64,000 nucleotides of DNA. Origin: a virus. Position numbers and translations under genes: made by a program. Shown here piece after piece: positions 36,242 through 60,100 of this stretch (positions are counted from its first letter, which is position 1; the number at the start of each line of letters is the position of its first letter). The notes beneath the pieces were generated by a model that did no database searches, was not told the origin of the DNA, and was given only the letters and a program-made list of their open reading frames with translations. Location of the stretch: IMG/VR virus record IMGVR_UViG_3300045972_000291, positions 1 through 64,000 of that record; one strand, 5' to 3'.

Positions 36242-36748
36242 ATGTCTTTCCAAACTCAGGTCAACCTGACCCAGGCGCCCGCCGTTGAAGGCGACATCGC
36301 GTCCACCAACCCGCGCCATTCCCTGCTCGGCGCCGCCGGCTCCTGGACTGCCGGCGCCGGCGGCATCACCATCGGCCGTTTTGCCTGGGGCGATCTCGCC
36401 TCCACCGATTCGGTTCTCGTCAACTCCGGGTCCGGCGTCCCGACGTGCTTCGTCTGCCGCGAATTCGGCGAGGCGATGATCACGAGCTATCTCGCGGAAT
36501 CCGGCCAGGTCATTCCCCAGGGTTTCCAGGTCGGATCGGCGTTCGTCTCCGGCGATTACTGGGTCAAGAACACGGGCGCCGGCGCCGTCACCGTGAACAT
36601 GAAGGCGTTCGCCTCCAACACCACGGGCCAGGTCCAGTTCGCCGCCGCCGGCGCGACCGTGGCCGGCTACACCGAGACCAAATGGTACGCCGCGACCGCT
36701 GGGGCCGCGGGCGAACTGATCAAGATGACCAGCGTGTCGCTGGATTGA
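36242..36748 (+). CDS. Capsid cement/decoration-like protein
   Basis: A 168-aa beta-rich protein beginning MSFQTQVNLTQAPAVEGDIA, with an ASTNPRHSLLGAAGSWTAGA segment and VNMKAFASNTTGQVQFAA. These features match Gp24-like structural cement proteins that stabilise DUF2184-type capsids. It lies 22 bases before the capsid gene. Expected copy number is high. Confidence 0.78.
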   Translation: MSFQTQVNLTQAPAVEGDIASTNPRHSLLGAAGSWTAGAGGITIGRFAWGDLASTDSVLVNSGSGVPTCFVCREFGEAMITSYLAESGQVIPQGFQVGSAFVSGDYWVKNTGAGAVTVNMKAFASNTTGQVQFAAAGATVAGYTETKWYAATAGAAGELIKMTSVSLD

Positions 36749-39564: not shown

Positions 39565-40281
39565 ATGCCGGTTTCGATTTCGCCGACGCAATCTGAGGTT
39601 CAGACGGCGCTTCGATCTTTTTTGCTCAGCATCCTGCCTGACGGGACCGAGGTCATCGAGGGCCAGGACAACGACGTCGCCGAACCGATCGGCCCCGATT
39701 TCGTCGTCATGACCCCGATCCTGCGCAACAGGCTTTCGACCAACATCGACGATTATGTCGACGCCACGTTCACGGGATCGATAGCGGGAACGACGCTCAC
39801 GGTCTCAGATGTCCACGCCGGCGCGCTGGTTGTCGGCGGCCCGGTCTATGGGGCCGCTATCGCGCCAGGAACCGTCATTTCATCCTTCGGGACAGGAACG
39901 GGCGGAGTCGGGACCTATGCCGTCAACAATGCGCAGACCGTCGCGCCGGGGCTGATTGCCTCAGGCTCCGCGCGGATGACGCAGCCGACGCAGCTGACGG
40001 TCCAGATCGACATCCATGGGCCGAACAGCCCGGAACATGCGCAAATCGTTTCGACGCTGCTCCGCGATGACTACGCGACGCAAAGATTCAAGGAACTGAA
40101 CCCTGACGTCTGCCCGCTTTTTGCCGGCGACCCGAGAGAAATCCCGTTCAGCAACGCGGAACAGCAGCTTGAATTCCGGTGGATCGTTGACGCGGTCCTT
40201 CAGGTCAACGCCACCGTCATCGTGCCGGGGCAGCAATTCTTCACCACCGCCGAAATCACGCCAGGCCACGCCGGCGTCTAA
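39565..40281 (+). CDS. Neck/tail terminator protein with inserted beta module
   Basis: A 238-aa protein of the gp12-like neck terminator type: MTPILRNRLSTNIDDYVD (residues 49-66) is followed, after an insert, by MTQPTQLTVQIDIHGPNS (138-155) and RDDYATQRFKELNPDVCPLF. In relatives these two parts are close together. Here residues 67-134 are a separate module (ATFTGSIAGTTLTVSD through GTGTGGVGTYAV). The same module occurs in the sheath and baseplate J proteins. The terminator caps the tail tube before joining to the head. Confidence 0.82.
   Translation: MPVSISPTQSEVQTALRSFLLSILPDGTEVIEGQDNDVAEPIGPDFVVMTPILRNRLSTNIDDYVDATFTGSIAGTTLTVSDVHAGALVVGGPVYGAAIAPGTVISSFGTGTGGVGTYAVNNAQTVAPGLIASGSARMTQPTQLTVQIDIHGPNSPEHAQIVSTLLRDDYATQRFKELNPDVCPLFAGDPREIPFSNAEQQLEFRWIVDAVLQVNATVIVPGQQFFTTAEITPGHAGV
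39763..39966 (+). repeat. Beta module copy 1 (in neck terminator)
   Basis: Encodes ATFTGSIAGTTLTVSDVHAG, then GGPVYGAAIAPGTVISSFG and TGTGGVGTYAVNNAQTVAPG. It is similar at the DNA level to copies at 40762-40968 and 51100-51310, for example gggaCAGGAACGGGCGGA before ACCTATGCCGTC. It is inserted between the two halves of a terminator fold. Confidence 0.8.
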
Positions 40282-40296
40282 AGAAGGATCACTCCC

Positions 40297-42024
40297 TTGA
40301 CGATTCCTGCTTCATATGACGTCCAAATCCTTCCCGGCGTCATCAACGGCGGAGGTTCCGCGCTCGACCTCAACGGGTTGATGCTGACCAAGAATTCGCG
40401 CGTGCCGATTGGAACCGTGCGGTCATTTTCTTCGGCAGCGGCCGTCTCGGCGTTCTTCGGCCCGACGTCGACCGAATTCGCGGACGCGACGGTTTATTTT
40501 TCCGGCTATGAGAACGCCACGGCGACGCCGGGAGCGCTGCTGGTCGCGCAATACCCCGCCACGCCCGTCGCGGCATGGCTGCGCGGCGGTAGCGTCGCCG
40601 GGCTCACCATCGCGCAGCTGGACGCCTTGAGCGGGTCCCTGTCCATCGTCATGGACGGCTATCCCCATTCTGCCGCGACCGTGAACCTTTCCGGCGCGAC
40701 ATCCTTCTCCGCCGCCGCTGCGCTGATCCAGGCCGCTATTGACGCCATCGCGCCGGTCGAGGCCACGTTCACCGGTTCGATTTCCGGGACGACGCTGACC
40801 GTCTCGTCCGTGGCGTCGGGCACGCTCTCCATTGGCCAGACCATCCCGAGCGCGGGCGTCGCAGCCAATACCATCATCACCGGGCTCGGGACCGGGACGG
40901 GGCTGGCGGGCACCTATACGGTCTCGGTGTCGCAGGCCGTCTCGTCCGAAAGCATGACCGCCGTCGCCACAGCCCCGACCGTGACCTACGACAGCCTGTC
41001 GGGCGGGTTCGTCGTGACATCAGGCATCACTGGCGCGCCGTCGATGGCGGCGTTCGCCACCGGCACGCTCGCGGACGCTTTGATGCTGACGCAGGCCACC
41101 GGCGCGACCCTCTCGCAGGGCGCGGCCGCGACGACGCCCGGCGCCTTCATGAATGCGCTCACGCTGCTGACCCAGAACTGGGCCACGTTCTGGACTGCGT
41201 TCGATCCGGACAGCGGGACCGGCAACGCGCAAAAGCTCCAGTTCGCGCAGTGGGTGAATTCGACCAACAACCGCTACGCCTATGTCGCATGGGACACCGA
41301 CATCACGCCGTCGCTCAGCACGACCGCGTCGACGTCGGTGGGCGCCCTCATCGCGGCCGCCGGCCTTTCCGGGACGGTTCCGATCTGGGTTCCCGTCGGC
41401 TCGAACCTCCACCACGCCGCGTTCTTCTGCGGCATGGTCGCCGCGACCGATGTTGAGCGGCTGAACGGCAATATCACCCACAAATTCCGGACCCAGAGCG
41501 GCCTTGTCGCCTCCGTCGCCGATCAGCAGACCGCGACGAACCTCAAGGCGAACGGTTACAACTGCGTCGGCGCCATCGCCACCGCGAACCAGCCCTTCGT
41601 CTATTATCGTGAGGGCACGATTTCCGGCCCGTTCCAGTGGTCGAATACTTACGTCAACGAAATCTGGCTCAACAACGCGCTGCAGCTCTCCGTACTGGAG
41701 TTCATGACGCAGGTCGGCTCCGTTCCGTACAATCACACCGGCGCCGGCCTGATCGAGGCGGCGTGCCTCGATCCGATCGCGCAGGCCCTGAATTTCGGCG
41801 CCATCGTGACCGGTGTGGCGCTGTCGAACGCACAGATCGCGGAAATCACCAACCGCGTCGGGTTCGACGTCTCGGCGACGCTGTTCGACCGCGGCTGGTA
41901 CATGCAGGTTCAGGTCGCGACATCGCAGGTCCGCCAGGCGCGCACGTCGCCGCCGATCCTGTTTTTCTATACCGACGGCGGCAGCGTCCACAACATCGTC
42001 ATTCCGTCCATCGACGTCCAGTAA
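40297..42024 (+). CDS. Tail sheath-like protein (DUF3383)
   Basis: A 575-aa protein from TTG 40297, expected to form the contractile sheath. It begins IPASYDVQILPGVINGGGSA and has DLNGLMLTKNSRVPIG, FFGPTSTEFADATVYFSGY, and a C-terminal RVGFDVSATLFDRGWYMQVQ and TSPPILFFYTDGGSVHNIVI, the DUF3383 pattern. An insert of about 70 residues (156-224, EATFTGSISGTTLTVSS onward) interrupts the fold before VTYDSLSGGFVVTSG. The sheath gene lies directly before the tube gene. Confidence 0.9.
   Translation: MTIPASYDVQILPGVINGGGSALDLNGLMLTKNSRVPIGTVRSFSSAAAVSAFFGPTSTEFADATVYFSGYENATATPGALLVAQYPATPVAAWLRGGSVAGLTIAQLDALSGSLSIVMDGYPHSAATVNLSGATSFSAAAALIQAAIDAIAPVEATFTGSISGTTLTVSSVASGTLSIGQTIPSAGVAANTIITGLGTGTGLAGTYTVSVSQAVSSESMTAVATAPTVTYDSLSGGFVVTSGITGAPSMAAFATGTLADALMLTQATGATLSQGAAATTPGAFMNALTLLTQNWATFWTAFDPDSGTGNAQKLQFAQWVNSTNNRYAYVAWDTDITPSLSTTASTSVGALIAAAGLSGTVPIWVPVGSNLHHAAFFCGMVAATDVERLNGNITHKFRTQSGLVASVADQQTATNLKANGYNCVGAIATANQPFVYYREGTISGPFQWSNTYVNEIWLNNALQLSVLEFMTQVGSVPYNHTGAGLIEAACLDPIAQALNFGAIVTGVALSNAQIAEITNRVGFDVSATLFDRGWYMQVQVATSQVRQARTSPPILFFYTDGGSVHNIVIPSIDVQ
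40762..40968 (+). repeat. Beta module copy 2 (in sheath protein)
   Basis: Encodes ATFTGSISGTTLTVSSVASG, then IGQTIPSAGVAANTIITGLG and TGTGLAGTYTVSVSQAVSSE. Nearly the same sequence pattern as in the neck terminator and baseplate J copies. Located in a surface-loop position of the DUF3383 fold. Confidence 0.8.
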
Positions 42025-42057
42025 TCGGGCGTTTCTCGCCAATCCAGGAGCGCCGTC

Positions 42058-42492
42058 ATGGCCGATATCACTTCCGCCAATTCCGTCCTGATCTTGACCG
42101 CAGTCGGCGTCTGGAACGGGCCGCAGCAGATCCAGGGCTACGCAACCGACGACGTCTATTCGGCCGATCCACTGGACATCGCAGAGACGATGATGGGCGT
42201 CGACGGCGGCCTGTCCGCCGGGTTCGTCTACAACGCGCTTCCCGTCGCCTACAATCTCATGGCCGGGTCGCCATCGATCGCGCTGTTCGACGCTCTCTAC
42301 ACCCAGAGCCGGCAGACGCGGTCGATCTATTGGCTCAATGGCTCGATCACGCTGCCGTCGCTCGGGATGAAATACGCGCTGGTCAATGGCGTGCTGAAAA
42401 CTTACCCGGCGATTCCCGACGGCGGCAAGGTGCTGAAGCCGCGCAAATTCTCCATCGTCTGGGAATCGATCAGCCCGGCAAGGTCGAATTGA
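42058..42492 (+). CDS. Tail tube protein
   Basis: A 144-aa protein, MADITSANSVLILTAVGVWN, with IQGYATDDVYSADPLDIAET and GGLSAGFVYNALPVAYNLMA. The size, position directly after the sheath, and pattern match DUF3277-like tail tube proteins of contractile phages. GGAGCGCCGTC precedes the start. Hexameric rings of this protein would form the inner tube. Confidence 0.85.
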   Translation: MADITSANSVLILTAVGVWNGPQQIQGYATDDVYSADPLDIAETMMGVDGGLSAGFVYNALPVAYNLMAGSPSIALFDALYTQSRQTRSIYWLNGSITLPSLGMKYALVNGVLKTYPAIPDGGKVLKPRKFSIVWESISPARSN

Positions 42493-42506
42493 CGGAGTGA
42501 GGCCAG

Positions 42507-42950
42507 ATGGCGCGCAAGGAAATCGATATCACGATCACGGACGAGGGGCGGGATAAGGGAAAGATTTTCCATATCCGGGAAATGGACGCGGATCGCGCGG
42601 AAAGGTGGGCGGCTCGCGTGTTGCTGGCCATGGCCAAGGGTGGCGTCGAAATCCCAGAAGGGTTTGAGGACCAGGGCCTTTTGGGTGTTTTCGTCACCGG
42701 GTTGAATTCCCTCAAAAACCTGACGTTCCCGGACGCCGCCGAACTGATGGACGAAATGTTCACATGCATATCAATCCGGCCTGATCCCAGAAACGCGCCG
42801 GACTTTCTTCGTCACGAGTTGCTTTCCGACGACATCGAGGAGGTCGCTACACGGGTTAAGTTGCGCGCGGAGGTGCTGAATCTCCACACGGGTTTTTCGC
42901 TCGCCGCGCTCAAGTCGAGGTTCGTCTCGATGAAACGTGCGGCGGCCTGA
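42507..42950 (+). CDS. Tail assembly chaperone, short (G-like) product
   Basis: A 147-aa protein starting MARKEIDITITDEGRDKGK. The pattern and location between tube and tape measure fit tail assembly chaperone G of lambda or its myovirus counterparts. Near its 3' end the sequence GGGTTTT (42890-42896) is a perfect X-XXY-YYZ slippery heptamer in the reading frame. A -1 shift enters a 59+ codon open frame that ends just before the tape measure. The unshifted product is the short form. Confidence 0.85.
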   Translation: MARKEIDITITDEGRDKGKIFHIREMDADRAERWAARVLLAMAKGGVEIPEGFEDQGLLGVFVTGLNSLKNLTFPDAAELMDEMFTCISIRPDPRNAPDFLRHELLSDDIEEVATRVKLRAEVLNLHTGFSLAALKSRFVSMKRAAA

Positions 42951-43123
42951 TCAATTATGCAAATGTCCCGCGCATCATCGGCGCCGTGATATCGAACGAC
43001 AAAGCTAGTCTTCGGGATTGCCAGGAGTTTTATTCGGCGCAAGACATCTATGATCTTTACGAACTGATCCTGGTCGACGCCCATAATTCAAAATTACTGC
43101 ACGAAAATGCGATGAAGGACTGA
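42890..43123 (+). CDS. -1 frame extension of the chaperone (GT-like), via GGGTTTT
   Basis: The extension continues from TTT in -1 frame (FARRAQVEVRLDETCGGLIN) to YDLYELILVDAHNSKLLHEN and stops at 43121-43123. It has no good start codon of its own and is open well upstream of the slippery site. The C-terminal sequence resembles T-domains of other phages (SLRDCQEFYSAQDIYDLYEL). The fused product would be about 205 aa. The stop is followed 4 bases later by the tape-measure start. Confidence 0.75.
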   Translation, partial: GFFARRAQVEVRLDETCGGLINYANVPRIIGAVISNDKASLRDCQEFYSAQDIYDLYELILVDAHNSKLLHENAMKD

Positions 43124-43127
43124 TCCC

Positions 43128-45209
43128 TTGGCGGCAACGGTGATCGACAGCCTCATTCTCGAGCTTGGGATTGACGCAAAAGAATTTCAGAAGGGCGAGA
43201 AAGCAGCTTCGGAGTCGCTCAAGAAAACGCGCGAGGAAGCGGAAAAGCACGGCAAGGGCATTGAGGAGGCGGGAGCCAAGGCCGCCGCGGCAATCAACAA
43301 AATCGCCACCGAGGCGCTGGGTCTCTTCGCAGTCCTGATCGGGGCGAACAGCATCAAGCAGTTCGTCGCCGACCTTACGGAAAGCAATGCTGCGCTTGGC
43401 CGCCTGGCCTACAGCCTAAATGCATCGCCCCAAACGCTGGCCGCGTGGGGGATGGCCGTCGAGCGCATCGGCGGCAATGCCGCGACCACGATGACAAGCA
43501 TCCAAGGGCTTTCTGACAAGCTCTACGACCTGCACGTCAAGGGAAAGACGTTACCGGAAATGGCTCTGCGACTGCAGGCCGAAGGTCACGTCAATATCGA
43601 CACCGAACACGGGCCGATGAAGGCAATCGAGGGCATCGCCGCCAACCTGAAAGCCGTCGCCGCCATCGACCCGGCGCGGGCGTCCTACCTTGGCCGCCAG
43701 ATCGGGCTTGATCAAGACACCGTCACGCTGATGATCAAACACGGCGATCAGATCGGCGCTGTGATTGAAAAGCTGAAGAGGCTCGGCCCAACGCAGGCCG
43801 ATATCGATGCAGCGCAAAAGCTGCAATCGTCCTGGGCGGAGTTGAAGCAGGAAGCGGTCAATCTTGGCCGTGAGGTGATGAGGGAGCTTGATCCGGGGCT
43901 GCAGGCCGCCGCTGACGCCATGATCAAATGGAACGCGGCGAACGGGGCGTGGATTGCCAGCGGCATTTCAGGGGCGATCAAGGCCGAGGTGGCGTGGATC
44001 GAATTCGTGATCACGGAATTTGACAATCTGACGAAAGCCATCGGCGACGCCCAGTATGCGTATATCCACTTTTTCCATCTCGACACGATCCTGGGCGTCA
44101 CGCCGGCTCACGATGGCCAGCCTGCGACGGAAAACCCGGATTCGTGGGGCGGCCGGGCTCGGAAGTGGTTTGGCGAGAAGATCGGCGCTCCGGTCAAGAA
44201 ATGGTATCATGACCAAGTTGATGGCGCGGCTCCCGCTGACACCGGAGGCCCGCGCACGGGCGGCTCGCGCTCCTACAACAACAACAACCCCGGCAACATC
44301 AAATTCGGTGCCTGGGCGAAAGAGCACGGCGCGACCGGGGCGGATGAAAAAGGGTTTGCGATCTTCCCCGATGAGGCGACGGGCCGAAAGGCGCAGCGCG
44401 GTCTCTGGGAACGGGGCGATTATGCCGGCCTGACGGTCGAGGAGGCCGCGCGCAAATGGTCGGAAGGCGGCTATGGCGCCGGGGGGCTCGGGGTCGATCC
44501 GGGCAAAAAGTTTTCCGACTTGGACGAGTTCGAAAAACAGAAGGTCTTGGCGCGGCAGAGGAAGCGCGAGGGGTGGTTCGGCCCCGGGTCCGCGGTCGGT
44601 CGCGGCGGCCGATCCGACGCGATGGCGCCGGCAGGGACATCACCGCAGGAAGAAGGAACGGTCGTTGTCACGTCGAAGGGCGGAGCAAGATTTCGCGTCG
44701 CCTCCGAATTTGCCGAAAACTTCAAGGGCTTCATCGACGATTACGAGGCGGCCGGCGGCGTGATCGGCCCTAACCATGGCGGACTGGGGGAGCGCAAAGG
44801 GAACGCGAGTTACCATCCCATCGGCCGCGCAATCGATGTCAACCAAATCGGGCGGAACGTCCGCGCGGGCGGCGTCACTTTGCCGCAAGATGTCGAAGAT
44901 GCGTTGGCCAAAAAATGGGGGCTACGCTCCGGCGCTAGCTTCAGCAGCCCGGATGGCGGTCACTTCGAGGTTAACGACGCGACCAGGGCACGGGGAGCCT
45001 TGGGCGGCCTGCGCCCGCACACCGGCGCGCATCTCCGCGACCATATCCATCACCACAAGAGCGTGAAAAGCACGACCTCCAGCGAGACGCACGTCGGGAC
45101 CGTGATCGTTCATACGGCGGCGACAGACGCCAACGGCATCGCGCAGGAAATCGGCCCGGCGATCAAGCGCAATTCCTTCGCGTCGCTGGCGAACGCGGGG
45201 CCCTCGTGA
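43128..45209 (+). CDS. Tape measure protein with peptidase M15-like tail
   Basis: A 693-aa protein from TTG 43128. The helical N-terminal 320 residues contain a coiled-coil region (FQKGEKAASESLKKTREEAE) that would set tail length. A central SYNNNNPGNIKFGAWAKEHG with GFAIFPDEATGRKAQ is a structural or lytic domain of the type seen in tail proteins. The C-terminal part has a M15-type signature: NASYHPIGRAIDVNQIG (H and D zinc ligands) and SPDGGHFEVND (catalytic Glu, His). It is likely to open peptidoglycan at infection. Confidence 0.85.
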   Translation: MAATVIDSLILELGIDAKEFQKGEKAASESLKKTREEAEKHGKGIEEAGAKAAAAINKIATEALGLFAVLIGANSIKQFVADLTESNAALGRLAYSLNASPQTLAAWGMAVERIGGNAATTMTSIQGLSDKLYDLHVKGKTLPEMALRLQAEGHVNIDTEHGPMKAIEGIAANLKAVAAIDPARASYLGRQIGLDQDTVTLMIKHGDQIGAVIEKLKRLGPTQADIDAAQKLQSSWAELKQEAVNLGREVMRELDPGLQAAADAMIKWNAANGAWIASGISGAIKAEVAWIEFVITEFDNLTKAIGDAQYAYIHFFHLDTILGVTPAHDGQPATENPDSWGGRARKWFGEKIGAPVKKWYHDQVDGAAPADTGGPRTGGSRSYNNNNPGNIKFGAWAKEHGATGADEKGFAIFPDEATGRKAQRGLWERGDYAGLTVEEAARKWSEGGYGAGGLGVDPGKKFSDLDEFEKQKVLARQRKREGWFGPGSAVGRGGRSDAMAPAGTSPQEEGTVVVTSKGGARFRVASEFAENFKGFIDDYEAAGGVIGPNHGGLGERKGNASYHPIGRAIDVNQIGRNVRAGGVTLPQDVEDALAKKWGLRSGASFSSPDGGHFEVNDATRARGALGGLRPHTGAHLRDHIHHHKSVKSTTSSETHVGTVIVHTAATDANGIAQEIGPAIKRNSFASLANAGPS

Positions 45210-45257
45210 TGGCAGATCCCGTGTAAAATGATAGCCTCCGAAAAATTGGAGGCAGAT

Positions 45258-45635
45258 ATGAAATACAGAACCGCGCCGACCCTCGTTATCGCTGGAATTT
45301 TATCGGCGACTTCCGCAGCCTCGGCCGGCCAATTGAGCGAGGATCAGGCGCGCAGGGCCGCTGCTCTTTTTGTAAGAGATTTCGGATTTGGGTCCGAGGG
45401 CGGTCAAGTCATACGCGTCCCAGACGGTCCCCTTGCCGAGAAATCTTTGGATGAAATCGCAAGTCATTTTGAGCAAATACTGCTCGTTGTGCGGGGAAGC
45501 ACAGGATACTGCGGCATAATCAAGGATCCCACCTGGGTTCTTATATGGGATTCGTCCGCGCCCAAATCATGGTTTGGCGGAAATCCGGTTATGATCAATG
45601 CGAGAACGGGCAAGCCCCTGGATTGCCGATCATAA
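45258..45635 (+). CDS. Secreted or periplasmic moron protein
   Basis: A 125-aa protein with a Sec signal peptide: MKYRTAPTLVIAGILSATSA with ASA-G cleavage. The mature part (LSEDQARRAAALFVRDFGFG, TGYCGIIKDPTWVLIWDSS) resembles small periplasmic proteins of unknown role. GGAGG lies seven bases before the ATG. It sits between tape measure and baseplate genes with its own spacing, a typical moron position; it could be expressed from the prophage. Confidence 0.65.
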   Translation: MKYRTAPTLVIAGILSATSAASAGQLSEDQARRAAALFVRDFGFGSEGGQVIRVPDGPLAEKSLDEIASHFEQILLVVRGSTGYCGIIKDPTWVLIWDSSAPKSWFGGNPVMINARTGKPLDCRS

Positions 45636-45662
45636 AGCTGACGTTCGCGGATTGGAGCAACA

Positions 45663-46268
45663 ATGGCAGACGTTCCAAATGTTGCCGGCGTCCCCGCTCT
45701 GCTGACCGGGTTTGCGCCCGGCGCCATCGGCGCGGCGCTCATGGTTGCTGACGTGGTAGGGCTTGTGTTTGGCTCCGTCGGGCCGCAATGGGGCATCTTC
45801 TCGGGCGGATCATCCGTCATTGCGGCCGATTCCGTGGCCAGCCTTGAATATAAACAGGACTGGGCCATCTGCGACTATCCGGTGGAGCGGGGCGCGTTCG
45901 AGACTTACAATAAAGTTCAGGTTCCCTTCATGTCGCGCGTTCGGTTCATGGCCGGGGGCGCGGAGGGAAATCGCGCCGCGCTGCTTTCATCGATTGCTGC
46001 GATCGCGGGAGACTTCAATCTTTACGATGTCGCGACGCCGGAGACGACGTACATCAACGTGAACGTCAGCCACTATGATTATCACCGCACAGCCACAAAC
46101 GGCGTCGGTCTCCTTGTGGTCGATGTCTGGTTACAGGAGGTTCGCGTCGCTATCCAATCGGGGGCCAGTGTTGCGAGCGTCAGCGGAGCGCCGCAAGTCA
46201 ACGGCGGCAGCCTCCAGCCCACGAAGCCAGAAGCGGGCGTTGCGGGACAATCCAGGAATATCGGTTGA
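45663..46268 (+). CDS. Baseplate/tail hub-associated protein
   Basis: A 201-aa protein beginning MADVPNVAGVPALLTGFAPG. The core (SVIAADSVASLEYKQDWAIC, YPVERGAFETYNKVQVPFMS and ALLSSIAAIAGDFNLYDVA) corresponds to a conserved protein directly downstream of the tape measure in DUF3383-type myoviruses. Its likely role is tail tip assembly. Confidence 0.75.
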   Translation: MADVPNVAGVPALLTGFAPGAIGAALMVADVVGLVFGSVGPQWGIFSGGSSVIAADSVASLEYKQDWAICDYPVERGAFETYNKVQVPFMSRVRFMAGGAEGNRAALLSSIAAIAGDFNLYDVATPETTYINVNVSHYDYHRTATNGVGLLVVDVWLQEVRVAIQSGASVASVSGAPQVNGGSLQPTKPEAGVAGQSRNIG

Positions 46269-46570
46269 TGCTCACCGTCCCTTTGAAGGCAGTCCCATCG
46301 CAAGCGGTGACCGTGACGCTCGCAGGCCAAAACTGCCAGATCAACGTCTATCAGAGGTTTTATGGCCTTTTCGTCGATCTCTACGTCGACAATGCACTCG
46401 TCATCGCCGGGGTTCTGGCGCTGAACCTCAACAAGATCGTGCGCAGCGCCTATTTCGGATTCTCCGGCGACCTCGCCTTTGTGGATACCCAAGGCGCTGA
46501 CGACCCGTCATATTCCGGGCTCGGGTCGCGCTTCGTGCTGGCCTATTGGGATGCGGGTGAGATGGGGTAG
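46268..46570 (+). CDS. Small tail/baseplate protein
   Basis: A 100-aa beta-rich protein, MLTVPLKAVPSQAVTVTLAG then QNCQINVYQRFYGLFVDLYV. This is a DUF6983-type baseplate plug/hub protein placed between hub genes. It overlaps the previous stop at TGATG. After it the gene order switches to the immI-like island. Confidence 0.75.
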   Translation: MLTVPLKAVPSQAVTVTLAGQNCQINVYQRFYGLFVDLYVDNALVIAGVLALNLNKIVRSAYFGFSGDLAFVDTQGADDPSYSGLGSRFVLAYWDAGEMG

Positions 46571-46589
46571 TAGTATAGAGTTTCTGTGT

Positions 46590-46904
46590 TTAATTGCCGT
46601 GCGTACTGTCAATTGCCTTGCTCATAAAAACAAGCACACCCCAAGCGCACGCATCAGCGTTTAGCCCGCTTATACGGCAATTCAGCATCGATTTTCTTAA
46701 TTCTGGCTCGCATTGTTTTTGATAAAAATGCAATTCTTGCTCGTCATCACCTATGCGGTCTTTCCGGATGCGGTCAGAATTGGACCAAATGCACGCGATT
46801 ATAGCCTTATCCGTATCATCGTTTTGCGCAGATACGACGCCAGCATGGGCGACGGATGGAAAAATCTGAGCAAAACACAGAAGGGCAACGGTCGAAAGTT
46901 TCAT
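46590..46904 (-). CDS. Secreted moron, lysogen-expressed
   Basis: A 104-aa protein with a signal peptide (MKLSTVALLCFAQIFPSVAH, cleavage after AHA) and four cysteines in the mature region (IIACIW, KQCEPELRKS, LNCRISGLNADACAWG), perhaps two disulphides. It is AT-rich and transcribed opposite to the tail genes, directly downstream of the ribbon-helix-helix repressor gene. A ribosome site GGGGGG is six bases from the ATG. It is probably expressed from the prophage in the lysogen, as a conversion factor. Confidence 0.7.
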   Translation of the reverse strand: MKLSTVALLCFAQIFPSVAHAGVVSAQNDDTDKAIIACIWSNSDRIRKDRIGDDEQELHFYQKQCEPELRKSMLNCRISGLNADACAWGVLVFMSKAIDSTHGN

Positions 46905-46931
46905 GGGTTTCCCCCCAAAAAGGAGGCCAGC

Positions 46932-47108
46932 CTATTTCGCCAGTGCGATCTCGACAAGACGGCGGATAGCCTCAGGGTGGGAAGGTTTGGGGTCGGGCTG
47001 CTCTTCAATGAAGGAATCGAGCGCGGCAAGCTCGGGCGGGTGAAGACGTACGCCAATCATGCTGATCCGCGACCTGCTCGCGCTCTGACCTTCTGAAAAA
47101 CTGACCAT
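46932..47108 (-). CDS. Ribbon-helix-helix (Arc/Mnt-like) repressor
   Basis: A 58-aa protein starting MVSFSEGQSASRSRISMIGV and continuing RLHPPELAALDSFIEEQP then EAIRRLVEIALAK. The beta strand (ISMIGVRLHPPEL), two helices and the terminal RRLVEIAL are characteristic of Arc/MetJ-type RHH dimers. The gene is divergent from a P22-type antirepressor and begins within 136 bases of it. It is too short for many gene finders. It probably represses the antirepressor, like P22 Mnt. Confidence 0.82.
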   Translation of the reverse strand: MVSFSEGQSASRSRISMIGVRLHPPELAALDSFIEEQPDPKPSHPEAIRRLVEIALAK

Positions 47109-47243
47109 CCAAGAACTTCACCCCCATGGCTGGGGATGATGAGCGCGACCGGATTCCCGAGCTTCTTTGCCGGGGTCGGTCGCTTTGCGACTGCCCGCCG
47201 CGTTCCGGGTCCAGCCAGGACCCCGGCAAAGGAGAACCTGAAC
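47109..47243. promoter_or_regulatory. Divergent control region of the immI-like island
   Basis: The 135-base interval between the RHH repressor and the antirepressor contains the inverted repeats CCCC-atggctg-GGGG (47133 region, imperfect) and GGTCC-AGCCA-GGACC (near 47207), which are candidates for repressor binding. No clear -35/-10 pair stands out. The assignment rests on the divergent arrangement. Confidence 0.45.
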
Positions 47244-48068
47244 ATGGAAAATAGAGAACTTCGCACCGTCCCGTTTCACGGCGACGAAATCGTGACCTTC
47301 GAAGCCGAGGGCGTGCGCTATGTCGCAATGCGCCGGATCGTCGAGAACATGGGTCTGAGCTGGGGAAGCCAGCACGACAAGCTTATGGATCAAAAGACGA
47401 AATTCAGTTGTACCGATATCGCCACAACTGGCGCTGACGGCAAAATCTATGAAATGCTCGCCATGCCAGTCGAAAAGCTTCCCCTTTGGCTGGCGTCAAT
47501 CAACCCGAACAAGATCAAGTCCGAGCCGACGCGCGCCAAGGTCGAGCGCTACCAGGCCGAATCCGCCATCGCTCTGCATGACTATTGGACCAAGGGCGTC
47601 GCGGTGCGCGGCGACATGGATGGCGTCGTGACCGATATCGGCGCCGAGGTCAGGCGGGCCATCGGCGGGATCGTCAAGGGCATCGTCCACAAAGAACTTG
47701 TTTCCGTGCTGCCGCAGATGGTTGAAAGCGCCATCGTTGCGGATTCCCGGCGCGCGGCGCTCAATGTCGTGTCGGTGCGCCAACTTACGGCGGACGCCAT
47801 CGAGAAGGGCCGCAACAGCGTCAATCGCAAGATCGGCTACGGTCTGCGCAATCGCGCCGCCGCCGATCCCGATGGCGGCAAAGCATTCCGATGCCCACAT
47901 ACCGGCGTTTGGCTCTTTGATCGCGCCTTTGCCGAGAGGTTCATGCGCGAGGCTGGAGACACGATGGTGCGCGCACATAACGACCGGATACGGGGCCAGG
48001 GCGTATTGAAGCTCGTGCCGCCCAAGCCGGAGAAAGACGAAAGCGATCTTCCAGGACGTCCGGCCTGA
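47244..48068 (+). CDS. ant: P22-like antirepressor (P22_AR_N domain)
   Basis: A 274-aa protein with the antirepressor N-terminal domain: LRTVPFHGDEIVTFEAEGV, YVAMRRIVENMGLSWGSQHD, and MLAMPVEKLPLWLASINPNK IKSEPTRAKV ERYQAE. The C-terminal half contains helical segments and a YGLRNRAAADPDGGKAF region. P22 Ant binds and inactivates CI-type repressors. It is preceded by GGAGAACC and followed by a strong terminator. Its divergent RHH neighbour makes an immI-like unit inserted in tail genes. Confidence 0.85.
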   Translation: MENRELRTVPFHGDEIVTFEAEGVRYVAMRRIVENMGLSWGSQHDKLMDQKTKFSCTDIATTGADGKIYEMLAMPVEKLPLWLASINPNKIKSEPTRAKVERYQAESAIALHDYWTKGVAVRGDMDGVVTDIGAEVRRAIGGIVKGIVHKELVSVLPQMVESAIVADSRRAALNVVSVRQLTADAIEKGRNSVNRKIGYGLRNRAAADPDGGKAFRCPHTGVWLFDRAFAERFMREAGDTMVRAHNDRIRGQGVLKLVPPKPEKDESDLPGRPA

Positions 48069-48094
48069 TTTTTCGCCCGATTCGCATCAATCAG

Positions 48095-48119
48095 GCCGCC
48101 TTCGGGCGGCTTTTTCTTT
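48095..48119 (+). terminator. Rho-independent terminator after the antirepressor
   Basis: GCCGCC, tetraloop TTCG, GGCGGC, then TTTTTCTTT. This is a strong intrinsic terminator. It lies 27 bases beyond the antirepressor stop and would isolate the island from the tail operon downstream, or require anti-termination for late transcripts to pass. Confidence 0.88.
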
Positions 48120-48133
48120 GAAGGCGTCGCAGA

Positions 48134-49003
48134 ATGACTTTCGTCAAGCGAGAAATCTCCGTTTCCTTCAATCTGGCAAAAGGTAATTTCGAGGGCGGCG
48201 GCAACAAGGCGACTGTGACCGGCTTGCGCATTTCGGCTCACATCCTCAACGCCGGGGGCGGCCATGCTGGCACGCTCGCGATGACGATCTACGGCCTCCC
48301 TTTATCGATGATGAACCAGCTTACAACGCTGGGAACGCGAACAAATTACATCTACCAGAACACCGTTTCCGTCATGGCGGGAGACGCCATCGCTGGCATG
48401 AATTTGGTTTTCAAAGGGAACATCACTTACGCGTGGACCGACGCGGCGTCGCAGCCGAAGGTCTGCTTCCGCCTTGAGGCCGTCGCCAGCGGAGATCAGA
48501 TGGTGAAATCGGCGCCGCCGACGAGTTATCAAGGCGCCGCCGATGTTGCGACGATCATGGGGAAGTTGGCGAAGGCCATGGGCCTTTCGTTCGAAAACAA
48601 TGGCGTCAACGTCAAAATAGCGAACCCCTATCTTGCCGGGTCCCCGTGGCATCAAGTGCTCGCACTGGCTCAGCATGCGGGCATCGAGCACATCATCGAC
48701 AAGGGGACGCTGGCGATCTGGAACAGCGGCCAGTCCCGAAAAAAGGGGCCGGTCCTGATCTCCCCGTCGACAGGCATGGTCGGCTACCCGGCATTCAACG
48801 AGAGCGCGATCGTCGTCAAATCGATCTTCAATCCATCGCTCGACCCCGGCGCCGAGATCACCGTCAAAAGCGACCTGACGCCGGCATGCGGCACTTGGAA
48901 TGTTACCGGCGTCGAGCACGATCTTGAAAGCGAAGTCTATCAGGGGCGGTGGTTTACGTCCGTCGTCGCCACGACGCCGCACCAACCGGGACTGACGCCA
49001 TGA
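48134..49003 (+). CDS. Baseplate hub protein
   Basis: A 289-aa protein of the gp44/gpD-like hub type: MTFVKREISVSFNLAKGNFE, RISAHILNAGGGHAGTLAMT, IYGLPLSMMNQLTTLG and a C-terminal GTWNVTGVEHDLESEVYQG. The hub forms the centre of the baseplate that receives the spike. The gene begins 15 bases after the terminator and overlaps the spike gene by four bases (ATGA). Confidence 0.85.
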   Translation: MTFVKREISVSFNLAKGNFEGGGNKATVTGLRISAHILNAGGGHAGTLAMTIYGLPLSMMNQLTTLGTRTNYIYQNTVSVMAGDAIAGMNLVFKGNITYAWTDAASQPKVCFRLEAVASGDQMVKSAPPTSYQGAADVATIMGKLAKAMGLSFENNGVNVKIANPYLAGSPWHQVLALAQHAGIEHIIDKGTLAIWNSGQSRKKGPVLISPSTGMVGYPAFNESAIVVKSIFNPSLDPGAEITVKSDLTPACGTWNVTGVEHDLESEVYQGRWFTSVVATTPHQPGLTP

Positions 49004-49608
49004 GCGATGATGGAAGCGCCGGATGGGTCGGCCTCACCGACTCCAATTCGGAGTTCAATCGGCATTCGTTTCATGTGCGCCAGCATCTCGCCAAAGTCCG
49101 CACCGCCACCCCCGTCAAAATCATCGCCGTCACCGGCACAAGCCCGAATTTCATCGTCTCCGTCCAGCCGCTCGTCAACCAGGTCGACGGCGCCGGCAAC
49201 GCGACGCCGCACGGCGTGATCCATGGAATCCCGGTCACGTCGATGTCGGGCGGAAACGGCCACGTCACCGTCAAACCGAAAGTCGGCGACCAGGGCCTGA
49301 TGGCGATCTGCGACCGCGACATATCGGCGGTCAAGGCCAATGCCGGGCAGGCCAATCCGGGATCGAGACGGCGGCATGACCTCGCCGACGGCGTCTATCT
49401 CGGCGGGTTCGGCAACATGAACGGCGCGCCGCCCCAAAGCGTCACCTTCGATGAGGCCGGCGTCCATATCGTCGGCGCGCCGGCGGTCAATATCACCGGC
49501 AACCTGACCGTGACAGGCACGATCACGGCGGGGTTCGGCACCGGCGATGCGGTGACGCTGCAGCAGCACAAGCACGCCGGCGGCCCGGTTCCAGATGCGG
49601 GGACATGA
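49000..49608 (+). CDS. Baseplate spike protein (Gp138/gpV-like)
   Basis: A 202-aa protein. An N-terminal OB-fold-like domain (VKIIAVTGTSPNFIVSVQPL then IHGIPVTSMSGGNGHVTVKP, LMAICDRDISAVKANAG) is followed by a beta-helix-like tip (INITGNLTVTGTITAGFGTG-like) and a histidine-rich QQHKHAGG. This is the pattern of spike proteins that pierce the outer membrane. Confidence 0.85.
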   Translation: MSDDGSAGWVGLTDSNSEFNRHSFHVRQHLAKVRTATPVKIIAVTGTSPNFIVSVQPLVNQVDGAGNATPHGVIHGIPVTSMSGGNGHVTVKPKVGDQGLMAICDRDISAVKANAGQANPGSRRRHDLADGVYLGGFGNMNGAPPQSVTFDEAGVHIVGAPAVNITGNLTVTGTITAGFGTGDAVTLQQHKHAGGPVPDAGT

Positions 49609-49611
49609 TCG

Positions 49612-49962
49612 TTGAAAACCATTCTTCTTGATCGCTCGACCTGGGACCTTGTCCTCGATGCCCAACGCAATCTAGCCGTCGCGACGGAGCCCTATCGGCT
49701 GGCGCAGGATGCAGCCTCCGCCTGCCGGGCTTTCCTTGGCGAGGTCTGGTACGACACCAAGAAGGGTATCCCCTATTGGGGTCAAATCCTTGGTCACAGA
49801 CCGCCACTTTCCCTGATCAAGGCGAAAATGGTTGCGGTCGCCATGACGGTTCCGGGCGTCGTCGCGGCGCAGTGCTTCATCTCTTCCGTCGCCGACCGCA
49901 CCGTTCGCGGTCAAATTCAGGTCACGGACGCCAACGGCGTCATCACAGCGGCGGCGTTCTGA
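49612..49962 (+). CDS. Baseplate wedge protein (gp25/gpW-like)
   Basis: A 116-aa protein starting at TTG 49612, [20 protein letters not shown], with [40 protein letters not shown]. These match the short gp25-like wedge proteins that follow the spike in contractile phages. It is coupled to the J gene. Confidence 0.82.
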
Positions 49963-49964
49963 CC

Positions 49965-51398
49965 ATGACGGCAACGACCAACGTTCCGGCGCCGATCTGG
50001 ACGCCCACTGGATTTCAGGCGCCCGCCGAGCTCGATATCCTCACCGCGCGGCAGGCCGACATCAACACCGCGCTTGGCGGCGACGTCAATCCAGACTTGA
50101 CCACACCGCAGGGGCAGTTGGCCTCCAGCGAAACCGCGATCATCGGGAATGTGAACGACGCCTTCCTGTTCATGGCGTCGCAGTTCGATCCCAAATACGC
50201 CGTGGGGCGCAATCAGGACGCCCTGGCCCGCATCTATTTCATCGAGCGCAATCCCGCGCAGCCCACCGTTCTTCAGATCGCATGCACCGGCCTGGCTGGC
50301 GTCGTCATCCCCGTCAATGCGCTGATCCAGGACGCATCGGGCAGCACTTATGCCTGCACCGAAGCCGGGGTCATCCCCGAGGGCGGCTCGATCTCGCTGC
50401 CTTTCGCCAACACCGTCACCGGCGCCATCGCCGTCCCCTCATCGACGGCCGTCTCGATTTACCAGTCGATCCCTGGCTGGGACAATGTGACGTGCGAAGG
50501 CGGAACCATCGGGCGGCCGGTCGAAAGCCGGAGCGATTTCGAGGCCCGGCGCGCGCTCTCGGTTGCCCTGAATTCGAACGGCTCCCTGCCGTCCATCATC
50601 GGATCGGTGCTTTCCGTCGCCGATGTCATCGACGCCATCGCCGTCGAAAACGATACCGGATCGGCCGCGACCACTGGCGGCGTTTCGCTGGTCCCGCACT
50701 CGATCTATGTCGCGGTCGTCGGCGGCGACGCTCAGGCGGTTGCTGAGGCGATCTGGAAAAAGAAGGGGCCTGGCTGCTCCTATAACGGCAACACGACCAT
50801 GACTGTGCTGGATACCGGAAACGGCTACGCTCTGCCCTATCCGGCATATTCGGTTTCTTTCCAAATTCCGGCGGCGCTCCCGATCCTATTCTCGGTCGTC
50901 ATCGTCAATTCGTCGCTCGTCCCATCCAATGCCGCAGCCCTGATCCAGAACGCCATTATTTCCGCCTTTGCCGGAGGCGACGGCGGCCCGCGCGCGCGGA
51001 TCGGGTCCGAGGTGCTGGCGAGCCGTTACTACGCGCCTATCGCCGCCATTGGCCCTTGGATGCAGATCGTCTCCATCGAAATTGGGTCGATCAATTCCGC
51101 CGCGGCAACGTTTGGCGGCTCGATTTCGGGCAACACGCTGACGGTCTCTTCCATCGCATCGGGCGCGCTCGCTGTCGGGCAGACGATCATGGACGCAAGT
51201 GGCAGAATCGCCACCGGAACGCAGATCACGGCGCTTGGGACCGGAACAGGCGGAACCGGAACCTATACCGTCAACGCGCCTCAGACCGTCGCGCTGGAGC
51301 CCATGCGGGCGGTTGTGCCGGGCCTGTTCAAAATCCAGACCAACATCAACCAGGTCCCCTCGATCACGGCCCAAAACATCGCGGTTTCATTCGGATGA
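49965..51398 (+). CDS. Baseplate J-like protein with inserted beta module
   Basis: A 477-aa wedge protein. The J core has [20 protein letters not shown] and [40 protein letters not shown], and [20 protein letters not shown]. Near the C-terminus residues from about 378 ([20 protein letters not shown] to [20 protein letters not shown]) interrupt the fold before [20 protein letters not shown]. It shapes the baseplate periphery and probably contacts fibre proteins. Confidence 0.88.
51100..51310 (+). repeat. Beta module copy 3 (in baseplate J)
   Basis: Encodes [39 protein letters not shown] and [20 protein letters not shown]. It shares the GSI-G-TLTVS and GTGTGG-GTY-V signatures of copies 1 and 2, and is inserted at a loop of the J fold. 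Confidence 0.8.
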
Positions 51399-54141: not shown

Positions 54142-54759
54142 ATGACCCAGCTCAGCCTGCGCGCGTCGAACAACGCGACCTTTCGCTGGACGCGCGACCT
54201 GTCGCAATTCGCGTCAGTCTATGACCTGGCCTCGGCGACGATCCGCATGCAGGCGCGGACCTTCCCGGGGGCGCCGGACCCGCCGACCTATCAATGGGTG
54301 ACAGGCGCGACCTCGGGCGGACGGGTCAGTTTCAACCCGACCACGAATCTCGCCGTCTTCACCGCGCCGCTCGCCGACATGGGCGCACTGTCCGGCGACC
54401 TCGACTATGACGTCCGGCTCGAATTTCCGACCGGCGTCGTCCCGCTGGTCCGCGGTAACCTGGCGTTCCATCCTGGCGTCACGCGGACGTCCGGCGATTC
54501 CTCGGCAACCGGCGTCTCCGGCATCGGCGACACGGTCACGGTGGATGGCGAGCGCGCGTCATCGCCTGTTCCGCTGCCCCTGGCGCTGACCGCCGCCATC
54601 GCCGCTGTTGAGGCGTCGGGCGGCGCGGGCGCGGGCTTCAATGTGTCCCTGACGGACGCCTTCGGCGCGTCGCTGGGTCGTCTCGCCTCCACGTCCGGCG
54701 CCGGGGCTTCCGTTCAAATCACCGATTCCTTCGGGACAGTCTTGGGGTACGCGGCATGA
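54142..54759 (+). CDS. Hypothetical tail protein
   Basis: A 205-aa beta-rich protein, MTQLSLRASNNATFRWTRDL, whose N-terminal half resembles a small domain with a WTRDLSQFASVYDLASATIR and a FHPGVTRTSGDSSATGV linker. The C-terminus has two related short repeats, VSLTDAFGASLGRLA and VQITDSFGTVLGYAA. It overlaps the esterase gene by four bases. It is probably a fibre or baseplate accessory. Confidence 0.65.
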   Translation: MTQLSLRASNNATFRWTRDLSQFASVYDLASATIRMQARTFPGAPDPPTYQWVTGATSGGRVSFNPTTNLAVFTAPLADMGALSGDLDYDVRLEFPTGVVPLVRGNLAFHPGVTRTSGDSSATGVSGIGDTVTVDGERASSPVPLPLALTAAIAAVEASGGAGAGFNVSLTDAFGASLGRLASTSGAGASVQITDSFGTVLGYAA

Positions 54760-56318
54760 GCGTTTCCGTCGTCACGCTTGGCAATTTGGGCGCCGATTTC
54801 GATACAGCGGGCGCGCAGGAGGCGAGCAAAGTCAACGTTTCCGCCGCGCTAAAAGCCAGCCTCGCGCCCAGGGATAACAGCAACAAAAAAACGATTGTCG
54901 TTTTCTGTTCCTCGGGCGGCTTGGCAGGCAGCGGGGCGACGCCATCCGCCGAGAACAACTGGGCGTCGCCCGCCGGCAATTGGAGCGGGCTGCTCGCCGC
55001 CGCGCTCGCGCCGTCCGGCTGGACGGTGTTCAATCGCTCGATTTCGGGGACCGGCGTCGACACCAGCATCGCACGGTTTTGGACCGACGTAGCGCCCCAC
55101 AAGCCCTCGCATGTGATCTTGGCAACGGGCATCGCAAATGATGGCTACAATATTCAACACTATCTGAGCGGAGTTCTGGAGATCATCCGGCTGTGCAAGC
55201 TGATTGGCGCGGTCCCGGTACTTCGCAGCATCTACCCGCACAACGCCATGACGGCGGCGCAATATGCCGCTGTGCTTGGGCTCAACAGGCAACTGTCGAA
55301 TCTCGGCTATCCGTTCATCGACCAGATGAGCATGTTCGACGACGGAAGCGGTCATTTCATCGGCGGATCGACGTATACCAGCGACGGGCAGCACCTGGGC
55401 GATCCGGGCAACGCCGGCCTGTTCAGCGCAATTGACCTTGGCGCGTTCACGGCCTTTACGGGTGGCCAGTGGGTTTCGCCAAGACAGGCCGGCGCCTGGC
55501 AGATGTCGATTGCCGACACGAACGAGATCGGGATCTGGGGCAGATCGACGGAGGGGCTTGGCGGCAATGTCAAGTCATTCTCGATGCGCGCAAAGGTCAA
55601 GTCACAGTCGGGAATTCCCACGTATCGCGGCGTCATGGGCGCTACGAATGCGACGGGAGACGTTATCCGGTTGCGCCATCAGGGAACTTACAATCTGGGC
55701 AGCACGCCGGGCATTGTCGGCTCAGCATCCTCGATCTCGCCGGAAACGGATTTTACCACGCACGAATTCGTCATCACTTACAATCACATGACGGATTTCG
55801 CCGCCCTCTACATAGACGGCGCGCTGGTTGCGTCCGGGGCTGCGGGAACCACGCAAGCCGCGATCGCGCAATTTTCATTCGGATCGCCAGTCGGAGCCGC
55901 CATCTGTGCGGCGGGAATGACATTTTCCGAAATGGGCGTGTGGCAGGTACCGCTCTCCGCGCTCGATGTTGCGGCCATGAACCTGACCGGCGCTGTCCCT
56001 CGGGGCAGCATGATTTTCGACGCCGATCTCAGCGCCAGCCCGAACGGTGTGTCAGGCGCCCAATCTGGCGTCTGCCCTAATGCAATCGGGAACGGACTGC
56101 TTCCGGTTATTGGCGGGTCGTGGCTTCCGGTGGACGCGGGCAGTCCCGCGCTGGCTCCGTCGCCGCTCTATGCCGCGTTCATCGCAATGCTTGGCGCGGC
56201 CTCGCAGGCTGAACGTGACGCTATCGCGGCCCTCCTCGGCACGAGTTCGGGCGGCGGCTCAACATCATCCTTCCAACTCGACCCGATTGACGCGCTCGCC
56301 ACCGCCATCATGCACTGA
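54756..56318 (+). CDS. SGNH-esterase/LamG-like tail protein
   Basis: A 520-aa protein. Residues 45-225 resemble an SGNH hydrolase: block I-like IVVFCSSGGLAGSG with Ser, block III GIANDGYN with Gly/Asn, and DGQHLGDPGNAGL with the Asp-x-x-His pair. Residues 240-430 look like a LamG/concanavalin fold (SMRAKVKSQSGIPTYRGVMG, FALYIDGALVASG-like). It probably deacetylates a surface polysaccharide. The catalytic assignment is moderate because block I deviates from GDS. Confidence 0.7.
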   Translation: MSVSVVTLGNLGADFDTAGAQEASKVNVSAALKASLAPRDNSNKKTIVVFCSSGGLAGSGATPSAENNWASPAGNWSGLLAAALAPSGWTVFNRSISGTGVDTSIARFWTDVAPHKPSHVILATGIANDGYNIQHYLSGVLEIIRLCKLIGAVPVLRSIYPHNAMTAAQYAAVLGLNRQLSNLGYPFIDQMSMFDDGSGHFIGGSTYTSDGQHLGDPGNAGLFSAIDLGAFTAFTGGQWVSPRQAGAWQMSIADTNEIGIWGRSTEGLGGNVKSFSMRAKVKSQSGIPTYRGVMGATNATGDVIRLRHQGTYNLGSTPGIVGSASSISPETDFTTHEFVITYNHMTDFAALYIDGALVASGAAGTTQAAIAQFSFGSPVGAAICAAGMTFSEMGVWQVPLSALDVAAMNLTGAVPRGSMIFDADLSASPNGVSGAQSGVCPNAIGNGLLPVIGGSWLPVDAGSPALAPSPLYAAFIAMLGAASQAERDAIAALLGTSSGGGSTSSFQLDPIDALATAIMH

Positions 56319-57178: not shown

Positions 57179-60100
57179 ATGAAATTCATTCGTAACGCCG
57201 GCTTCGCGCTGGCTGTCGCCGCTTGCCTGTTCGCCACCGCGGCGCCGGCCCAGCTCATGGGCATCTTCGGCGACATCCGGGCGCGGATCATCTCGATCTT
57301 CACGGCCATTGCGCCGCAGGTCTTCCCCTCCGCGTTGTTCGGCGCAGCCGTTGCGCCCGGCGCGGGCGCGGCCAATCAGGGCCTCGTCGTCCCGGCGGGG
57401 GCCACCTACGTCCCACCAACAACAACGAGCATTTCCTCGTGGGTGTTCGTCTTCGAGGGCGTCGTCAATTCCAACATGCTGACCGGGTCTTATGGTGGTG
57501 AAGCCATCGGAGCCAACTGCACGAACTCGACATGTGGGAATAGTGGCTCTCACCAAATCGTTCTCTCCAACATCGGTTCGCCGGTTGCGCTCGACCTACA
57601 AGTGTTTTTCAAGGGGCCAATCTCTGGCTATCCGTTCTGGGTGCCCTACCAAGCAACATCTTCGGCATCTACGGCAGGCGCTGGATATACGCCGGGCTAT
57701 TACCTATGGGCTCTGTCGGCGACACAGATCACGGCGGGTAGCTGCACAGTTTACCCCTCGGGCTCCTATACCGTCACTGGGTCCACAGTCACCGCCCCAC
57801 GCATCACGCAGCCCGGAATGTGCGCGCCAGGCACGACGTTCAGCGGCCTGTCGCTCACCTCTGGCGCGCCCACCACGCCCGGATCCCTCACTGTGACAAT
57901 GGGGCAGTTGGGTTACACTGGCGTTTCCGCCAAGCCGGGCCAACATTTCTGCGCCGCAATCGGCCAGTGGGGTTCTGACGCCAGTGTGCCGGTGGGCATC
58001 CGAGGCCAGCAATTTGTCATCGCCGTATACGATCAAGGCAACCATCTGACTGGCTCTCCCGCGATTTCCACCACGAGCAACATCGGCGTAGGCTTAACCT
58101 ACAGCTTCTATACTTACAACACCGGAGCAGCGATCCCGAACACCGCCATCGGCAATCTCATTACTACGATTGGCACCAACTATAACGCCAACGGCCAATA
58201 TGCCAACTGGGGCGGCCAACTGTCCAATGTTGGCATGATCTGGTGGCAATGGCCGCAGGTCGGTTCCGCGCCCGACACCGCGCCGCTGGCCTCCATGTGC
58301 AAAAAGCAGGTCGATCCGCTGGCCTATTTCCAGGCGCAGAGCGGCGCGACCGTGCGCAGTTTCTACAAGCTCGACCCATCAACGAACATCCTGACAGACT
58401 CGGGGCCCAACGGCTATACGCTGACGCCCATCACTTCGGCGCCCACGTCAGGCTCGCCCACGGCGCAAGGCGCGGCGTTGACGATCACCGACACCGGCCC
58501 GTCGACGGTCTACCCGGTATCGTCATTCTTTGTTGGCACAGTTGCGGTGGGTTCCGGGCCAGTCGCGATTTCGGGAACCTACAACCCGACCGCGCTTGGC
58601 GGGACGCCGACCGCAATCGAGGCGCAGGTATCCGCGACTCCGGGCGGCTCCCCGCTTGCCGGCTGCTTGTCTTGCGCATGGGGCTCGATCGCTACGCCTT
58701 CGGGTGGGACGTGGAGCGGGTCGGTCCCGAACGTCCCGGCCGGCGGCCCCTATTACGTGTCCGTGCGGGCCTCGAACGCACCCAACTTCGTTCAGACGTC
58801 CGGCCCGGTTTCGGTCGGTGAAGTGGTCGCGTTGCAGGGCCAGAGCCAGATGGCCTATTTGTGCACGGGCCAGACCGGCAACACGCTTTCTCCCACGAGC
58901 AATTTGGGTTGGGCGCTCGGCGGTGAGACAAACAACGTCTCGCAGACCGTCGCCGGCGTGCCGATAGGGTCGCTGGCGTTTCAGCCGGTCACGCCGACAA
59001 CGGTTCCCGGTCAGAACATCACCACCCAAGTCAATTTGGGCGACGGCTGCACGGCCTATCTGCAATCGTTGGCTACGCTGACCGCCAATGTTACCGGCAA
59101 TTCCTGGCCGATCCAGATGCTGAACCTCACCTATTCCGGTCGCTATGCGGAAGTGTGGCTCAACGGCTATCTCCAGATCAAAAACTGGTTGGCGGGATCG
59201 GGAACCGGCCCCTACACCGCGAACGTGCTGGCGTCTGCGTCGAACATCAACGGCAACACGACCTCCGGATCGAACATCATTAACGTCACCGGCATCGGGT
59301 CGGGGACGCTGCAAGCGGGCATGTCAATCGGGTCTGCCACCAACTTGGCCGTCGGGATCATTCAGCCCTTCGGAACCAGTGGAACCACGGGCGCGGGTGG
59401 CGCCGGCACGTATGCGGTGTCGACGACGCAGCCGGGCGGCACGTTTGTGGCCGCCAGCGCCAACGCCGTCAACTATGGGCTGTATCCCGCCATGGCGGGC
59501 GCGAACAATGACATGACCTCGGTCAATATGGTGCTCGCCGGGACCATGATATTCAAGGACGCTACCGGCGCTGTGCTCGGACAGGACACGGCCCCGCTGG
59601 TCATGAACACCTCAACGAGTACGACGTGCTCCGGTGCCACCATTGCGTCGTGCTCCATCGACTATGTCAACGGCGGCGTCTCGATCACGTTCACCACGCC
59701 CCCGGCAGGGCCGATCACGGCGACATGGACCAACATCGTGGATGTCGCGCCTACGGGCTACGGCGGCATTTACGACGGCATCGACTATGTCGGAAATGGC
59801 GACCCGGCGACGGGCACGCTGTCCGCGATGATGGCGCATGTGCCCGCCGGCATTAACCTCATGCTGTTCAGCCAGTGCACGATGAACAGCAACGAGGTCG
59901 CGGCCTATGGCGTCGGCAAACTGTCGATGTCGCAGAAGTATGACTATCTGTTCAACGTCAAATATCCGAGCGTCTTCAAAGGCTATTCGTCCACGACGCC
60001 GATCCTGTCTCTGGAGCATTTCAGGGACTCGCAAAATGTGTCGACCGGAACTGCGGGCCAAATCCTCGGCTGCATGGCATGGTTGCGCGACTATGGCCTG

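Follow-up and report, generated by a model that had tools for sequence, protein, structure and literature searches.

A module of about 70 residues recurs inside three structural proteins of the contractile-tailed phage studied here, i.e., the tail/neck terminator, the DUF3383 tail sheath and the baseplate J-like wedge protein (J). The stretch we analyzed, positions 1 to 64,000 of IMG/VR virus record IMGVR_UViG_3300045972_000291 (hereafter the window), covers nearly all of this record of 66,904 bases. The three segments are in frame, 68-71 residues long and 56-63% identical, which bears out an earlier note that had proposed such a recurrent module from the letters of the window. We read it as an autonomous accessory domain, patchily present on exterior virion proteins and mostly inherited vertically once acquired, which would act as a weak multivalent adhesive or decorating coat; we put the probability of this reading at about one half.

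One module within three host proteins

With regard to identity to the J copy, the terminator segment reaches 56% and the sheath segment 63%, and 30 columns of the multiple alignment are invariant in all three. One module profile matches all three segments, each of which also matches phrog_21413 and phrog_38233 (E-values 2e-12 to 2e-17). A degenerate DNA pattern of the GTGTGG..GTY core has two matches in the window compared with none in 100 shuffles. The module is new to the curated domain libraries searched (Pfam and NCBIfam), where 45 members showed only weak, unrelated matches at E <= 1. Sequence comparison with the PDB gave chance matches only. When phage records were searched by protein BLAST, the sheath module matched 5 records and the J module none, the latter probably due to low-complexity masking. 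A literature search with the module motif returned no paper, which does not prove that the module is undescribed elsewhere.

All three host genes lie on the + strand. The terminator (39565-40281, 238 amino acids, phrog_1876) matches PF23961 with an E-value of 1.3e-18, and its module (39760-39966, residues 66-134; module profile match) occupies a loop between two presumed beta-strand segments. Within the sheath (40297-42024, 575 amino acids; PF11863, E 9e-117), a homologue of gp31 of phage E217, the module (40759-40968, residues 155-224) is located between helix 137-149 and beta hairpin 228-241 of the outer insertion domain, as judged by the alignment with empty relatives and the secondary structure of the model. 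The Pfam and PHROG matches of both proteins are broken into two stretches by the module. J (49959-51398, 479 amino acids; PF04865, phrog_6) is homologous to E217 gp44 and carries the module in a loop close to its C-terminus (51102-51311, residues 382-451; profile match, AlphaFold confidence of 98, see below). The terminator and sheath segments had been placed correctly beforehand (39763-39966 and 40762-40968), whereas the J segment had been started at 51100, two bases off frame.

We also compared each site with its counterpart in related loci, which are denoted here by L numbers. Sheath relatives without the module run from the helix straight into the hairpin homologous to 228-241. The terminator site is empty in L131, L141, L166 and L176, and the J site in L115, L131, L151 and L164. 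That relatives run straight through at these positions, as had been claimed, holds for many but not for all of them. Several host pairs are 68-74% identical and differ in module presence (sheath: L176/L131, L127/L146, L179/L143; J: L115/L101). Pantoea phage PA-1, a cultured phage matched by synteny, lacks the module in all three proteins. Each host protein thus has one fixed loop for the insertion, at which whole modules are gained, lost or duplicated. Because of the module, many environmental phages show split domain matches and odd annotations such as 'tail fibre' or 'unknown'.

For the fold, an AlphaFold model of the module was built from an alignment of 45 diverse copies. It reaches a predicted local distance difference test score (pLDDT) of 98 and a predicted template modelling score (pTM) of 0.86, and shows a compact all-beta arrangement with strands 2-21, 28-31, 41-45 and 53-70. 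Together with the empty sites, this agrees with the earlier expectation of a module separate from its host domains and with a fold of its own. A Foldseek search finds this fold embedded in many viral proteins (template modelling (TM) scores 0.8-0.95), including an HK97-type capsid protein as well as P22 gp10-type, Stf-type and pectate-lyase proteins. The sole credible PDB fold match is 8eci_1, a 124-residue chain of Arthrobacter phage Bridgette (probability 1.00, 32% identity; TM 0.66 by query length and 0.40 by target length, E-value 0.018). Antibody-type immunoglobulin (Ig) domains reach a TM of at most 0.30 and a probability of at most 0.04, and no Ig family is found among the Pfam and NCBIfam matches of the 45 members at E <= 1. 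That is, the module is predicted to fold autonomously into an all-beta domain that is not Ig-like. Further fold matches were seen in BFVD for two collagen-repeat proteins of Indivirus, a giant virus (A0A1V0SCQ2 and A0A1V0SDM6; 51% and 26% identity over the module).

The model of the whole sheath matches E217 gp31 (8env_A), which has no module, across its length (TM 0.79 by target length), with a pLDDT of 85-96 around the module stretch; gp31 has 504 residues compared with 575 in the window. Based on this model, the sheath module appears to be a further insertion inside the extra domain that is called InD in phage XM1 and domain A in E217.

Distribution and history

To survey relatives, we searched with the J sequence outside the module, which led to 80 loci. 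There, 49/80 J proteins, 37/57 sheaths (0-3 copies, i.e., single, double or triple where present) and 28/51 terminators carry the module, figures that are biased upward because the seeds of the J search all carried the module; the patchy presence among close relatives that had been foreseen is thereby found. In the same loci, the module is absent from tube (0/59), chaperone (0/59), tape measure (0/63), hub (0/78), spike (0/80) and gp25-like wedge (0/80) proteins. Within these phage loci, the module is restricted to components of the particle exterior, again in line with the earlier note.

Further occurrences are found in the head-stopper family phrog_1912 (5/55), in tail fibre proteins and at the C-terminus of XM1 gp53-like head decoration proteins (10/11, among loci that were brought in by the module itself). 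Examples of such head decoration proteins (XM1 gp53/phrog_2122 type) with one to three C-terminal modules are L179:2581-3702, L191:7143-8264, L193:1489-2454 and L219:1155-2138; the window's own head decoration protein (36242-36748) is without module. In another type of phage (L024:2409-3380 and 3344-5251, L182:7770-10981), an SU10-like adaptor carries the module, and two tandem copies lie in the head-closure (Hc3) protein next to it.

The genome scan used the three window copies as query. In whole-genome searches, two Rhizobium strains hold 6 and 7 copies, respectively (G001, G006), all within one prophage stretch of a genome of 7-8 Mb. The prophage of Rhizobium freirei PRF 81 (L187/L188) has modules in its likely head decoration protein (one), terminator (two), sheath (two) and J (one). 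In two bacterial families, any copy at all is found in just 2/299 and 5/300 genomes. The module is also part of secreted-looking cellular proteins (L194:5166-9362, L206:4731-8633, L221:4944-8120). There it follows a GH5 cellulase domain in tandem copies, precedes DUF6701, or belongs to an FG-GAP protein that bears a Por secretion tail; no further copy was found elsewhere in the respective genomes.

The trees of the host proteins require at least 6 (J), 8 (sheath) and 6 (terminator) changes of module presence, of which at least 3, 5 and 1, respectively, are forced by strongly supported branches. Mixed loci exist as well: only the sheath is filled in L176, L166 and L130, only terminator and J are filled in L146, and L115 combines a filled terminator and a doubly filled sheath with an empty J. 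The three sites therefore vary partly independently. Their co-occurrence across genomes is nevertheless strong (odds ratios 27-184); we do not claim a coordinated gain or loss of the three copies, since merely 2-5 independent changes underlie it and shared ancestry would look the same.

Similarity at silent positions had been taken to suggest that the module moves between genes by recombination. We observe little or no excess: identical codons at shared residues of the three window pairs number 22/38 (expected 15.9, P 0.03), 20/42 (17.1, P 0.21) and 17/33 (13.6, P 0.14), with P-values uncorrected. The longest exact DNA run between window modules is 13 bases, and module similarity across genes within a genome exceeds that between genomes by 1.5 points or not at all. 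In the module tree, copies from one host gene tend to group together (18 changes compared with 92 for shuffled labels), so most copies were inherited at their site. Recent movement between genes by recombination is thus not supported. The same tree has few supported branches and mixes single sheath copies with J copies; given this weak resolution, older transfers between genes are possible. We also compared by halves whether the window's single sheath copy is a chimera of two tandem copies, which revealed no clear crossover, and no such origin is claimed.

The window also encodes a fibre-like protein of 1485 amino acids (57179-61636, + strand), in which three divergent copies had been reported. 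Two of them are credible as remote module relatives, namely residues 689-762 (59243-59464, 14.9 bits with the module profile) and 1091-1167 (60449-60679, 9.7 bits), for which a profile comparison gives a probability of 94.6%. The third is doubtful and at best partial (residues 1386-1433, 61334-61477; 8.9 bits over profile positions 5-39 of 69). The protein is without Pfam or PHROG match; it starts with an apparent Sec signal peptide (MKFIRNAGFALAVAACLFATAAPAQ) and has a GQSQM stretch that is reminiscent of SGNH esterases. As a signal peptide is odd for a virion fibre, the protein may be a secreted or surface protein that is expressed from the prophage.

The structural genes of the window are arranged in the order terminase, portal, head morphogenesis, protease, minor head decoration, major capsid, neck proteins and terminator, followed by sheath, tube, chaperone, tape measure, hub, spike, wedges and fibres. 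A second protein of the fibre region (54756-56318) weakly matches GDSL esterase and laminin-G, with scores that fall short of the Pfam cut-offs. Within the tail gene cluster, two small proteins with apparent signal peptides (45228-45635 on the + strand, 46590-46904 on the - strand) are possible morons, and a protein at 47136-48068 looks, by eye, like a phage antirepressor.

Possible roles on the particle

We envisage the module as an unnamed all-beta accessory domain that would sit in outward-facing loops of terminator, sheath and J and, in relatives, also on head decoration and head-stopper proteins. E217 has 204 sheath subunits, 12 copies of gp44 and a hexameric terminator (PMC10329688). A particle could therefore show some 200 module copies, i.e., by analogy about 6 on the terminator, 200 on the sheath and 12 on J. 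Together they might form a multivalent, weakly adhesive or decorating coat that keeps the virion near cell or matrix surfaces, much as Ig-like domains may do for other phages, and at each site the module would be mostly passed on vertically after its acquisition. Extra domains of sheaths lie away from the tube (PMC9230969). Surface adhesion is our best guess of the function, which we infer from the exterior placement, the occurrence in fibres, with a GH5 cellulase and in other secreted-looking proteins, and the precedent of the Ig-like domains of phage Douge.

Several points weigh against this adhesive coat. The outward placement of the module loops is taken from E217 and XM1 homologues and one predicted monomer, not from a model of the assembled particle. 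Many relatives, about half of them, do without the module, and the prevalence figures are biased upward. The conserved positions of the module are glycines and small hydrophobics, the strongly conserved aromatic or charged ones being limited to one Y/W position and one position that is 73% aromatic, and the module alignment shows no conserved charged ligand site. A bolder version would have a shuffled non-Ig decorating family coat the whole virion (head decoration, neck, every sheath subunit, baseplate and fibres) with one adhesive unit, such that the particle as a whole and not its fibres alone is a multivalent binder; the family would then extend over phages of many bacteria and also include some secreted proteins of cells. 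We consider this possible but less likely than not.

Instead of binding cells, modules on neighbouring sheath, neck and baseplate subunits might touch each other and tighten the particle, without any role in adsorption. Such cementing would fit the strong co-occurrence of the three sites and the many sheaths with tandem duplications. It also finds precedents, i.e., for domain II of the phage 812 sheath, a stabilising effect on the sheath disk has been proposed (as quoted in PMC9230969), and Bridgette, the source of 8eci_1 as sole PDB fold match, is a phage reported with capsid cement proteins (PMC13033339). We nevertheless rate it as a serious but rather unlikely rival: fibres and secreted enzymes, which have no sheath lattice, carry the module too, the mixed genomes show that no copy requires the others, and the co-occurrence itself rests on few independent changes that shared ancestry could equally produce.

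A role may also be lacking altogether if a small, soluble domain that folds by itself is spread through illegitimate or homologous recombination and is kept in exposed loops because it is harmless. This, too, is a serious but unlikely rival, given that modules were kept long at each site (about 50% identity, open frames, large clades), which speaks for selection on at least the fold, and that keeping several copies in one phage is costly. Gain and loss among relatives of about 70% identity, apparent losses in single lineages (e.g., J of L115), the sporadic occurrence in the two bacterial families and the missing charged ligand site are, on the other hand, what a tolerated passenger would show. 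Finally, the segments might simply belong to their host domains or be an artefact of low complexity, as hinted at by their many G, T, S and V residues and by the one copy for which BLAST, probably due to masking, matched nothing. This is extremely improbable: segment-free relatives align without a break at the 68-74% identity given above, AlphaFold predicts a single compact fold for the segment by itself, and its sequence is found in unrelated host families. The adhesive coat, mostly inherited in place, thus remains the reading we favour.

Comparison with known systems

Sheaths with an extra domain inserted in the N-terminal domain are known from Vibrio phage XM1 (gp6, InD) and E217 (gp31, domain A) (PMC10457771, PMC10329688). 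Both belong to the sheath family of the window, while the module appears to be a further insertion and is absent from E217. The sheath of Acinetobacter phage AP22 (Obolenskvirus), which like PA-1 is a myovirus, is homologous to the window's as well. PA-1 shares the structural gene order and has homologous terminator, sheath and J proteins, which without the module measure 183, 492 and 410 amino acids compared with 238, 575 and 479 in the window.

Regarding sequence clusters, the module matches, in the hosts tested, internal stretches of phrog_21413 (about 395-469 of 595) and phrog_38233 (about 550-650 of 896, named tail fibre protein). Both are whole-protein clusters that do not set the module apart as a mobile domain; sheath, terminator and J fall into other PHROGs. 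With regard to structure, Bridgette 8eci_1 is a stand-alone chain of an unrelated phage, whereas the module is an inserted domain.

The closest counterparts in kind are the Ig-like domains, which were reported on about a quarter of tailed phages, with glycan binding shown in one case (PMC13033339), i.e., phage Douge, whose Ig-like domains (MCP, TTP) bind surface glycans (PMC13033339). They occur on capsid, tail tube and sheath, project from the particle and are proposed or shown glycan binders. Like them, the module is a small beta domain that is added to several exterior virion proteins and is patchy among phages. Unlike them, it has a different predicted fold and interrupts loops of three proteins together, namely terminator, sheath and J. 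The module may thus work like the Ig-like domains without being one, such that the kind would be known and the family as well as its joint use in neck, sheath and baseplate new here. That is, a second, structurally different domain was seemingly recruited for the Ig-like niche, on several components of one particle and with filled and empty sites in close relatives. A long-standing question thereby becomes testable, namely whether accessory surface domains serve phages in finding or holding cells, add to virion stability or are no more than tolerated.

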